Assembly: GCA_019923695.1 (NCBI GenBank)
Contig: JAHXGO010000002.1
Coordinates: 1-37,741, forward strand
Source of the DNA: Candidatus Liptonbacteria bacterium
GTDB lineage: Bacteria > Patescibacteriota > Minisyncoccia > UBA6257 > Colwellbacteraceae
Length of the DNA stretch: 37,741 bases
Direction of reading: 5' to 3'
Below the pieces are notes generated by a model. It was given only the letters and a program-made list of their open reading frames with translations, made no database searches and was not told the origin of the DNA. A program made the translations under genes and the position numbers. Of this stretch, positions 41 to 6,852 are shown piece after piece; position 1 is the stretch's first letter, and every line of letters begins with the position of its first letter.

Positions 41-2620
41 ATGGTTTCGCTTCAAAATTCTTTATCCGAAGTAAAAGGCATTGGCCCGAAGTTTATCGCA
101 AAACTCAAACGGCTTAAAATAGAAACCGTAAAAGATATTTTATGGCACTTTCCCGTTTATTATCAGGATTGGAATAAAATCACTTTAATAAAAAACTTAA
201 AAGCCGGTGAAAGAGCGGTAATTAAAGCAAAAATTTTAAATATTAAATATCGAAGAACCTGGAGAAAGAAAATGGCTGTCATTGAAGCTCTGATTAATGA
301 CGGTTCTGGGACAATTAGGGTTATTTGGTTTAATCAATATTACATAAAAAATATTTTAACTAAAGGAAAAGCCGCTTTTTTTGCCGGAAAAGTTATGGCT
401 AGCCCGGACGATATTTATCTTTCCAACCCTCATTATGAAATAATCAACGAACAAAACGAAAAACCTTTTTTAACCGGTCTTTTGCCAATATACCCTGAAG
501 TTAAAGGTCTTACCTCAAAAGGTATCAGATTTGTCATAAAAAAAATTATTCCTTCACTTGAAATAATTCAAGAATTTGTCCCAAAAAAAATTTTAACTGA
601 TTACGGTTTACCAGAAATAAATAAGGCAATCTTTCAAATCCATAACCCTGGAACAGAAAAAGAAGCGCAATTAGCAAGAAAAAGATTTGAATTTGAGGAG
701 TTGTTTCTTCTTCAGTTAAACAACCTTACCCAAAAAAGAAAATTAAGAAATGAAAAAGCCATTCAAATCCAAACTGACATTGAGTTTATAAAAAAAATAA
801 TAGAGAGTCTTCCGTTTAAACTTACTTTCCCTCAAAAGAGAAGCTTATGGGAAATTCTGCAGAATCTAAATCGTCAATTTCCGATGAACAGGCTTCTTCA
901 AGGAGATGTGGGTTCAGGTAAAACCGTAGTCGCGGCCATAGCGTCGGTTCTAACCGCAAAAAACGGCTTTCAGGCCTGTTTTATGGCGCCAACCGAAATT
1001 CTGGCTAATCAGCATTATCAAACTTTCAAAAAATTATTCGGTCAATTTAACTACCCTATTGCTCTGCTAACATCAAAATCCGCCATTATCTTTTACGCTG
1101 AAGGATTGGAAACCGAAATTAAAAAACAAAAAATCATTGAAGACATAAAAAACGGAAAAATAAAAATAATAATTGGAACACATGCTTTGATCCAAAAAAA
1201 CATAATTTTCAACAACCTGGCTTTTGTGGTGATTGATGAACAGCATAGGTTCGGCGTTCGTCAACGAGCCTTACTGACACAATCTCAAGTCGTCAATACA
1301 TCCGAGTTTATAAACAATGATAAAATTGCAGAAAAAAAATTATTCTCTAAGTTAAAAAATATTTTTTTAAAAATTCAAGAAGAAATAGGAAGTTTTTGTC
1401 AGGAGGAACAATATGCTGATGTATTAGAAAAAAAATTGAAAGAAGAAAAAATAAATTTTAAAAGAGAGCTCCCAACTGAAGTTGAAGATAAAAAACCCAA
1501 TTTTATTAATTTTATCATTGAAAACAGAATTTTAATTAATCTTAAATCAAAGCCGCTTATAGAAAAAAGTGATTACTATCAAATGAAGTATTGTTTAGAA
1601 ATTACTAATTTGGAATTGGGTTTAATAATAAATTTTCAAGATAAATATCTAAAGTTAAAAAGAATTTTAGGAGATAAAAAAATTGTAAACTCGAATAACT
1701 TAATGGTTTCAAATCAGTTTTTACCGCATTTTCTTTCTATGTCAGCCACTCCGATTCCACGCACATTGGCAATCACGATTTTTGGAGATCTTGACCTTTC
1801 AATTATTGACGAACTTCCTTTGGGAAGAAAACCAATTATCACAAAAATAGTGGCTCCAATAAACAGAAATAAAGCTTATGATTTCATTCACGATCAAGTT
1901 AAAAAAGGAAAACAAGTTTTTGTTATCTGCCCCAGGATAGACAATGCGCGGACCGAAACAGATTATGAACAAACTAACCCAGATAATCAGTATGAGTCCG
2001 TGTCAAATAAACATAGGCCTACTTTATTATGGGAAGTCAAAGCAGTCAAAGAAGAATACAAAAAACTATCAGAAGAAATATTCCCCGACCTTAAAGTAGC
2101 GATGGTTCACGGCAAAATAAAAGCAAAAGAAAAAAACCAGATTATTTCCGACTTCAAAGACAAAAAATATGATATTCTTGTTTCTACTTCTGTTGTTGAG
2201 GTTGGGGTGGATATCCCCAACGCTACAATTATGATGATTGAAGGAGCGGAAAAATTCGGTTTAGCTCAACTTTACCAATTCAGAGGCCGAGTCGGAAGAA
2301 ATATTTACCAGTCTTTTTGTTTTCTTTTTACCGACTCATTTTCAAAAGCAACCCATTACAGATTAAGAGCTTTAATTGAAGCAAAAAACGGCTTTGAGCT
2401 TGCCGAAAAAGATTTACGGATTAGAGGTCCGGGAGAATTTTTAGGGACAGAACAAACCGGATTGCCGGATACGGCAATGAGGGCCCTAAAAAATCCAAAA
2501 TTAATTAAAGAAAGTCGCGAAGCCAGCCAAAAAATTCTAAACAAAGACCCATATTTAGACACTTATCCTTTGTTAAAAAATAAACTTTCGACTTTTCAAA
2601 AAGCAATCCACTTGGAATGA
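41..2620 (+). CDS. recG: ATP-dependent DNA helicase RecG with an internal GxxExxY-like domain insertion
   Basis: Helicase motifs GDVGSGKT, DEQHRFG, SATPIPRT and QFRGRVGR; N-terminal wedge-like region; continuous 859-aa ORF. Confidence 0.95.
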   Translation: MVSLQNSLSEVKGIGPKFIAKLKRLKIETVKDILWHFPVYYQDWNKITLIKNLKAGERAVIKAKILNIKYRRTWRKKMAVIEALINDGSGTIRVIWFNQYYIKNILTKGKAAFFAGKVMASPDDIYLSNPHYEIINEQNEKPFLTGLLPIYPEVKGLTSKGIRFVIKKIIPSLEIIQEFVPKKILTDYGLPEINKAIFQIHNPGTEKEAQLARKRFEFEELFLLQLNNLTQKRKLRNEKAIQIQTDIEFIKKIIESLPFKLTFPQKRSLWEILQNLNRQFPMNRLLQGDVGSGKTVVAAIASVLTAKNGFQACFMAPTEILANQHYQTFKKLFGQFNYPIALLTSKSAIIFYAEGLETEIKKQKIIEDIKNGKIKIIIGTHALIQKNIIFNNLAFVVIDEQHRFGVRQRALLTQSQVVNTSEFINNDKIAEKKLFSKLKNIFLKIQEEIGSFCQEEQYADVLEKKLKEEKINFKRELPTEVEDKKPNFINFIIENRILINLKSKPLIEKSDYYQMKYCLEITNLELGLIINFQDKYLKLKRILGDKKIVNSNNLMVSNQFLPHFLSMSATPIPRTLAITIFGDLDLSIIDELPLGRKPIITKIVAPINRNKAYDFIHDQVKKGKQVFVICPRIDNARTETDYEQTNPDNQYESVSNKHRPTLLWEVKAVKEEYKKLSEEIFPDLKVAMVHGKIKAKEKNQIISDFKDKKYDILVSTSVVEVGVDIPNATIMMIEGAEKFGLAQLYQFRGRVGRNIYQSFCFLFTDSFSKATHYRLRALIEAKNGFELAEKDLRIRGPGEFLGTEQTGLPDTAMRALKNPKLIKESREASQKILNKDPYLDTYPLLKNKLSTFQKAIHLE
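1283..1717 (+). other. In-frame insertion in RecG resembling a GxxExxY (PDDEXK_3-like) protein
   Basis: Residues KLFSKLKNIFLKIQEEIGSFCQEEQYADVLEKKLKEEKINFKRELP...FINFIIENRILINLKSKPLIEKSDYYQMKYCLEITNLELGLIINFQDKYLKLKRIL match the GxxExxY family pattern; located between DEQHRFG..LLTQ and ..LPHFLSMSATPIPRT, which are close together in ordinary RecG. Confidence 0.8.
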
Positions 2621-5514: not shown

Positions 5515-6852
5515 TTACTTCAGCCATTTCCCATATTGACGAGGCAATAATTGCCCTGCCTTTGCCGGTTCTGCCATTATTTTAAAACTGATTTTCTCCA
5601 TTCTGACGCCTTGAGAGCCTTTAACAAGAATCAAATCATTCGGTTTGATTATTTTTTCAATATTTATTTTTGCTTCATCAGAGTTTGCAAAACTTATGAC
5701 CAAGGGGCAATCTATGACCAAGGGGCAATCTATGACCAAGGGGCAATCTGAAATATTTTTTTTTATAAATTTTGTTTTTCTCGCGCCTTCAGCTATAAAT
5801 TTTGCTTTTGTCCCAACCGTAATCAAAACATCAACAAAACCAGCAGCTAATTTTCCAATATTTTTATGAGCTTCAACAGAATACTCCCCCAATTCTAACA
5901 TATCTCCTAAAATCGCCACCTTTCTTTTTGCTTTCAAATCTTTCAAAACATCAAGCGCTTCTTTTGCTGAAGATGGCGAAGTATTATAAGAATCATCAAT
6001 AAGATAACAAGATTTAATTCCTTTAATAAGTTTTAATCTCCCGGGCAAAGATTGATAAAAAGGAAAAATATCAGCCATTTCCTTAAGAGTAAAACCTAAA
6101 ATTAACCCCACGGCCGCGCTAACTGCTGTCGCGTAAGCCTGGCCCTTGCCAAAAACTCCGTCAATTTTAACTGTTACGCTTTGTTTTTGATATTGTAATT
6201 TAAAAATAATACCTAAAGGATTATACCCCTGACAACAATTTTTAAAACCGGTAATTCTGACATCAGCGCCTTTATTAAATCCGTAAGTTAAAACTTTTGC
6301 TTTTGTTAAATTTTTTGAGGAAAGAACCGTTTTGTCGTCAAAATTTAATATCGCGAAACCTTTTTCCGATAAACTTGAAATTATTTTTGCATCCTCTTCA
6401 GCCACTTCTTTTGGACAACTATAAAATTCAACATGAACCGGCACATCCGAAGAAGAAACAAAAACACCAATCAAAGGACTAGTAACTTGCAGTAAATAAT
6501 CAATGTCTTTTGGCTTATCGGCGCCATACTCTAAAATAAGAAATTTAGGGTAATCGCTTTTAAAAATAATTTTAAAAAAAGCCAAAAAAAACACTTTTAA
6601 CCAAAATAAAAACCCGCCGGTTTGATAATACTCGCCTAAAATAGTTAGAGGTAAGCCGATTTCATTGTTAAAACTTCCGCGACTTGCCCGAACTTTGTTC
6701 TTAGCTTTCAAAACATTGTATATCGCCTCTTTGGTTGAACTTTTGCCAACCGTGCCTGACACCCCTATAATTATCGGTTTATATTTTAAAATAATTAATC
6801 GGCTAAAGTGTTTTAAAAGAAAAATTAGAATTTTTAATAAAATTTTTCGCAT
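5515..6852 (-). CDS. murF: UDP-N-acetylmuramoyl-tripeptide--D-alanyl-D-alanine ligase
   Basis: Mur ligase P-loop GVSGTVGKSSTKEAI, DDSYNTSPSSAKEAL, AILGDMLELGEYS. Confidence 0.93.
   Translation of the reverse strand: MRKILLKILIFLLKHFSRLIILKYKPIIIGVSGTVGKSSTKEAIYNVLKAKNKVRASRGSFNNEIGLPLTILGEYYQTGGFLFWLKVFFLAFFKIIFKSDYPKFLILEYGADKPKDIDYLLQVTSPLIGVFVSSSDVPVHVEFYSCPKEVAEEDAKIISSLSEKGFAILNFDDKTVLSSKNLTKAKVLTYGFNKGADVRITGFKNCCQGYNPLGIIFKLQYQKQSVTVKIDGVFGKGQAYATAVSAAVGLILGFTLKEMADIFPFYQSLPGRLKLIKGIKSCYLIDDSYNTSPSSAKEALDVLKDLKAKRKVAILGDMLELGEYSVEAHKNIGKLAAGFVDVLITVGTKAKFIAEGARKTKFIKKNISDCPLVIDCPLVIDCPLVISFANSDEAKINIEKIIKPNDLILVKGSQGVRMEKISFKIMAEPAKAGQLLPRQYGKWLK
5696..5749 (+). repeat. Three perfect tandem copies of an 18-bp unit inside murF
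   Basis: ATGACCAAGGGGCAATCT x3, read on the coding strand as CPLVID CPLVID CPLVIS. Confidence 0.98.

Follow-up and report, generated by a model that had tools for sequence, protein, structure and literature searches.

Palindromic elements that lie in-frame within Rickettsia genes have been known for more than 20 years, and we know of no candidate enzyme for moving them. These Rickettsia palindromic elements (RPEs) are mobile palindromic DNA of about 150 bp, carry no nuclease, and occur in-frame and unremoved in many unrelated protein genes (PMC10969869). The element family considered here is likewise palindromic and found in-frame in unrelated proteins, and is likened to RPEs by description; it differs in having a nuclease domain between its arms and a length of about 430 bp. 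Nuclease-bearing elements of this kind would be candidates for the missing autonomous partner of RPE-like elements.

Introns encoding LAGLIDADG proteins are present in the rRNA genes of CPR bacteria (PMC11270868). The inserts described below resemble these introns and inteins in being nuclease-coding, in occupying recurrent positions in essential genes, and in being sporadic with empty-site sisters. However, inteins and LAGLIDADG introns are spliced from protein or RNA, whereas the element here has neither splicing domain nor ribozyme and stays in the protein; its nuclease fold also differs from LAGLIDADG. A further likeness is to MITEs and other small inverted-repeat elements, in that arms-only inserts in LepA look like internally deleted, non-autonomous forms, but terminal repeats and target duplications were not recognised here and the arms are arrays of short motifs with a spacing of about 11–12 bp. 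A literature search on GxxExxY, PF13366 and in-frame CPR elements returned no description; most subscription journals lay outside its reach, and the search is hence no proof of novelty. The family is apparently undescribed, a variant of the in-frame palindromic element with a nuclease inside.

The copy analysed here lies in recG of Candidatus Liptonbacteria bacterium, within a 37,741-nucleotide stretch of DNA (the window). We consider it likely that this copy has decayed from a mobile element of Parcubacteria-type Patescibacteria, one that sits in-frame and is not excised, and whose distribution points to mobility. The window copy is in-frame like the others, and its palindrome is eroded.

The RecG insert and its predicted fold

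The features of the locus are as follows.

41–2620, forward strand: recG, one frame of 859 aa with the insert in-frame (open reading frame, RecG profiles and alignment with 1gm5)
1283–1717, forward strand: full insert of about 141–145 codons (codons 415–559), in the interval between helicase motif II (DEQHR) and motif III (SATPIPR)
1283–1318, forward strand: 5´ linker or eroded 5´ arm, TQSQVVNTSEFI, at the same position as the inverted-motif arms of intact copies; residual signal weak
1303–1310, forward strand: possible inverted-repeat remnant CGAGTTTA, weak (8-bp match in AT-rich sequence; partner TAAACTCG)
1319–1672, forward strand: GxxExxY/PDDEXK_3 domain, type B (profile matches; AlphaFold model of 1283–1717)
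1508–1510, forward strand: first catalytic acidic position, an Asn codon in the window where the family has Asp (alignment)
1538–1540, forward strand: second catalytic acidic position, that of E-x-K, an Asn codon in the window where the family has Glu or Asp (alignment)
1544–1546, forward strand: Lys of the E-x-K motif, kept (alignment)
1673–1717, forward strand: 3´ linker or decayed 3´ arm (local match over 40 bases to the corresponding arm of L195, a near relative)
1686–1693, forward strand: TAAACTCG, pairing with 1303–1310; weak

The RecG frame has zero internal stops. RecG profiles cover the protein as two blocks, aa 1–416 and then from about 558 onward, and T. maritima RecG (1gm5) aligns with aa 3–420 and 565–832. 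The stretch from DEQHRFG to ATPIPR measures 176 aa, whereas 54 RecGs of the order that lack the insert have 34–54 aa there, a difference of about 141 residues. The earlier note had placed an insert of about 145 codons at 1283–1717 and assigned it to the GxxExxY family; coordinates and length are right, and the family assignment is borne out by two profiles above their curated cut-offs. PF13366 (PDDEXK_3, Pfam) matches aa 434–537 with 52.6 bits (cut-off 22, E 7e-14) and TIGR04256 (GxxExxY, NCBIfam) matches aa 436–542 with 52.8 bits (cut-off 35), scores far beyond chance. The literal GxxExxY motif is absent from the insert, which reads FCQEEQY, with E and Y kept. The type-B subfamily mostly has FCRE(R/K)QY, and the Gly is shifted two residues upstream across the type-B clade. 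Membership thus follows from the profile scores and not from the literal motif.

Structure prediction of the insert gave a PD-(D/E)XK-like fold. The AlphaFold model of 1283–1717 (pLDDT 81, pTM 0.74) has the order H-H-E-E-E-H-E-E, which includes the alpha-beta-beta-beta-alpha-beta core of this fold. Its nearest folds are PD-(D/E)XK nucleases, with viral matches at E 3.6e-7 (unnamed) and 1.3e-5; a search of the PDB alone gave E 0.013 (probability 1.00), and a sequence search for a solved structure of any GxxExxY relative found none. The insert is like the GxxExxY/PDDEXK_3 family in its scores above both cut-offs, its predicted fold and the D...E-x-K motif of most of its embedded relatives. It differs from the intergenic members, which are small and free-standing, in that the embedded domain lacks its own start and stop and is part of a host protein. 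A model of full-length RecG (pLDDT 61, pTM 0.38, six-row alignment) was too poor for placing the domain on the motor.

Elsewhere in the window, MurF (5515–6852, reverse strand) contains an in-frame tandem repeat, DCPLVI three times with an 18-bp unit, at about 5697–5751.

Distribution across RecG and other proteins

A RecG match was found in 245 of the 246 genomes of the order, although some weak matches may be other helicases, and 86 of the 246 have PDDEXK_3 somewhere. The GxxExxY domain fills the RecG loop between motifs II and III in 17/246 genomes, the window's included, scattered over six families (f1, f5, f8, f16, f17 and f23). Filled and empty loops occur within the same genus: G221 is filled and G222 empty, G177 filled and G178 and G179 empty, G060 filled and G059 and G061 empty, and G181 and G182 filled and G180 empty. 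No pair of filled and empty alleles inside one species was seen among the genomes compared. The insert is thus sporadic rather than uniformly conserved, and because of this distribution and the empty-site sisters within genera it is not ancestral; an ancestral domain of CPR RecG is ruled out on the same grounds. The empty loop of the G180 RecG (L122), a sister of the two filled genomes, reads LLSRTQTHHP, and its SRTQTHH could be a scar left when an element was lost.

The window's genome is a draft in 22 contigs, and the window copy could in principle be an assembly error or a chimera of two genes. We give this practically no credence, since insert and host share one uninterrupted frame and the same architecture recurs independently in this loop, both in 16 further genomes and among named GenBank records.

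The insert is the only PDDEXK_3 match in its genome (422 kb, 95.9% complete). Among the genomes listed with the domain, just G000, the window's genome, and G075 belong to the window's family, and the RecG insert is type A in G075 and type B in the window, which implies that the loop received an insert on two separate occasions. RecG has a second insertion site in the linker between wedge and helicase, before the motor (G226), and a third between motifs I and Ia (L194). The latter copy, from Parcubacteria group bacterium GW2011_GWD2_38_12, is the closest relative of the window copy, at 63% identity. In a tree of 60 domains from which L194 was left out, the window copy is sister to L064 (support 98/86), which precedes a prepilin-like sequence in a family other than the window's. 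The type-B clade that holds the window copy (100/100) has mixed hosts, namely RecG, M50 protease, GT2 and prepilin.

Frames longer than 250 aa hold about 49 of the roughly 150 PDDEXK_3 matches listed for the order, and further orders of the class also have long domain-bearing frames. Pfam or NCBIfam confirms as hosts LepA (two sites), GatB, a transketolase-like protein, a copper P-type ATPase, an M50 protease, a GT4 glycosyltransferase, D-Tyr-tRNA deacylase, NDH2 and an O-antigen ligase. A family-2 glycosyltransferase with two inserts has a weak host match, and two copies sit ahead of prepilin-like sequences as fusions, judged by eye. The in-frame elements of this family thus occupy about a dozen unrelated proteins, and the window holds one old copy. 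Such in-frame inserts are common across this class of ultra-small bacteria, with recurrent sites in LepA, GatB and RecG. The family would explain puzzling domain architectures of CPR proteins, and its insertion sites may be read as natural maps of insertion-tolerant loops. Since the inserts exist with and without the nuclease at recurrent sites, their origin and movement are directly testable.

Two further loci deserve mention. One glycosyltransferase-like frame (L043 in G034) contains two GxxExxY inserts, of types A and B. In a MAG labelled Bacteroidetes (L229), a GxxExxY domain is fused to the C-terminus of a DXR-like protein; there may be GxxExxY fusions outside CPR, or the contig may be misbinned.

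Arms, junction hairpins and nuclease-free inserts

Embedded copies are flanked by repeats of a 6–7 bp motif with a spacing of about 11–12 bp, in one orientation on the 5´ side and inverted on the 3´ side, e.g. ACGCAGACT... before the domain and ...AGTCTGCG after it. Motif variants include GCGGAC, ACGGAT, ATCCGAA, GCGAAC and CCGGAT. The two arms of one element share a mean of 4.77 7-mers, against 1.20 when arms are re-paired (0 of 5000 permutations; this test, like those on the junctions, counts related sequences as independent). In the frame of the element the arms read as polar linkers, e.g. TQTETQTNAD and RESASSPRESA. Intergenic copies often carry similar arms, and none was seen inserted in rRNA or tRNA genes. 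Target-site duplications and transposase-type terminal repeats were not recognised.

The LepA insertion site lies between GITIKMAPVRM and LNLIDTPGH, and filled genes have stems, mostly of 7–10 bp, directly at the element: GTGAGAATGG-TGTA-CCATTCTCAC in L032, GTTCGCATGA-TTTA-TCATGCGAAC in L048 and GTCAGGATGA-TTTA-TCATCCTGAC in L044. The second half of the stem is missing in empty LepA genes, and the paired bases follow the host codons. Median stems of domain-bearing genes are 8.5 bp (5´) and 10 bp (3´), against 4 bp in 21 empty genes (p 9e-4 and 5e-5, with kin counted as independent). In RecG, 5´ stems of at least 6 bp were found in 7/11 type-A copies and 6/54 empty genes (p 5.5e-4, again with kin counted as independent). 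Stems of type-B copies, and of 3´ sides outside LepA, were not above host background; junction hairpins are thus not a general feature of the elements. The LepA stems may have formed during repair, when the host strand was copied by snap-back, or may reflect selection for structure.

The same LepA site has 20–45 extra residues and no domain in 13 genes. One of these arms-only inserts, L046, has the arm type of domain-bearing elements; the others are different palindromic arrays, and in L170 a 19-bp junction hairpin inverts the host codons ATGGCTCCTGTGCGGATGC. We read L046 as an internally deleted element, and the other arms-only inserts as alike in place and form. They are of several sequence kinds, and derivation from GxxExxY elements is arguable for L046 alone. 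As an observation in its own right, the GITIK–DTPGH loop of LepA is a hot spot of diverse nuclease-free in-frame inserts, many of them palindromic (L167, L168, L170, L175–L177, L180, L181, L186, L189–L191).

The domain has a dN/dS of 0.06–0.07 in four same-host pairs, L054/L057 (RecG), L042/L067 (Cu-ATPase), and L034/L035 and L068/L010 (LepA), a sign of strong purifying selection, from which it follows that it is translated and was functional in those lineages. This bears on the idea of a post-transcriptional or post-translational removal, as an intein, an intron or by ribosomal bypassing, that would keep the insert out of mature RecG. Intact copies do have inverted arms and junction hairpins that resemble the stem-loops of excised or bypassed elements. 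However, no intein or Hint family is found among the Pfam and NCBIfam matches of the window RecG, and the insert lacks Cys or Ser at its start and His-Asn at its end, where it reads VSNQF before LPHF. The window contains no group I or group II intron family at Rfam gathering scores, and in about 430 nt a ribozyme would scarcely fit beside the reading frame. Embedded copies are in-frame and stop-free, in part owing to how they were picked, and a dN/dS of 0.06 in same-host pairs is unexpected for an untranslated stretch. Inteins and introns are very unlikely for want of a splicing domain or ribozyme, and ribosomal bypassing is very unlikely in view of the selection data.

Between families, LepA inserts are 78–88% identical and their LepA hosts 48–62%, which suggests horizontal arrival of the insert; the difference could partly reflect slower evolution of the domain, with silent sites near saturation.

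Decay of the window copy and a proposed route

The family consensus NF(A/V)DF..I.(E/D)LK has become NFINF..INLK in the window insert. The acidic catalytic residues are thus substituted, as the earlier note had suggested: the window copy has D->N at 1508–1510 and E->N at 1538–1540, and lacks the D and E-x-K residues of an active nuclease with the exception of the Lys. Among 47 aligned embedded copies it alone has lost both acids; L042 is the only other one without the catalytic D, and most embedded relatives retain the D...E-x-K motif. In type-B alignment numbering the lost acids are D64 and E74, and the near-invariant Arg25, Arg28, Arg91 and Tyr92 are gone as well. The terminal branch of the window copy in the 60-domain tree is 0.56, against 0.18 for L064, and a crude ratio of replacement to silent changes per branch is 0.38 for the window, 0.15 for L194 and 0.29 for L195, all below 1.

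Little is left of the arms. The 3´ arm matches that of L195 over 40 bases (shuffle p 0.001) and that of L194 (p 0.003), the 5´ arm is not recognisable as an element arm, and the two share only three 7-mers, with no significant inverted repeats between them. Neither junction has a significant hairpin. What ties the window copy to the family is thus its homologous domain and 3´ arm, together with its position at a RecG site that other copies share.

The domain might instead have been domesticated, i.e. captured in this lineage as a GxxExxY fold that lost catalysis and was kept for a function specific to RecG, such as binding of DNA or a partner. The open frame, the replacement/silent ratio of 0.38 beside 0.15 and 0.29 on the relatives' branches, and the good confidence with which the insert fold is modelled would all agree with this. 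Yet the near-invariant D64, E74, R25, R28, R91 and Y92 are lost, the closest relatives are in other genes or at other RecG sites, the domain is absent from nearly all other genomes of the window's family, and constraint would also be expected merely to prevent misfolding inside RecG. We regard domestication as improbable, less so than excision. On the simplest reading, the window holds an old element that is dead as a catalyst and whose frame is kept by the need for RecG. The suggestion in the earlier note that a nuclease-like mobile module was captured by RecG and inactivated gains support from the family, the fold model, the loss of the acids and the sporadic insert, inactivation being what the substitutions predict.

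An intact element would consist of a GxxExxY PD-(D/E)XK domain without its own stop codon, set between inverted arrays of an element-specific 6–7 bp motif, which would also code for flexible polar linkers. Insertion into a tolerant loop would give the order host part, linker, nuclease domain, linker, host part. Whether embedded in the host protein or supplied by intergenic copies, the nuclease would cut empty and perhaps hairpin-prone sites, and repair of the break would copy the element into the cut site. The distribution is compatible with such homing into empty alleles. As type B, the window's kind, is without junction hairpins, a hairpin-targeting step would not be general. The insert was probably retained because any removal that broke the frame would cost the genome its only RecG, and the domain would now serve as a folded spacer inside RecG. 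The window copy may thus represent an end state, a dead nuclease not easily shed by a needed helicase.

More broadly, these elements might constitute a new class of selfish DNA, a proposal that we see as evenly balanced. Nuclease elements without start or stop would reside permanently inside essential proteins, their arms doubling as linkers and their junction hairpins being formed or sought (in LepA apparently via inverted duplication of host sequence). They would give rise to arms-only derivatives and would die by catalytic decay while the host gene keeps the frame open, as in the window.

A separate observation concerns family f17, in which in-frame TGA codons are found in LepA (L274–L277, in G185–G188) and in RecG (L200:4761–4763, in G186). 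At two of the LepA TGA positions relatives have Trp, or Tyr/Trp, and this suggests that TGA is read as Trp in f17.
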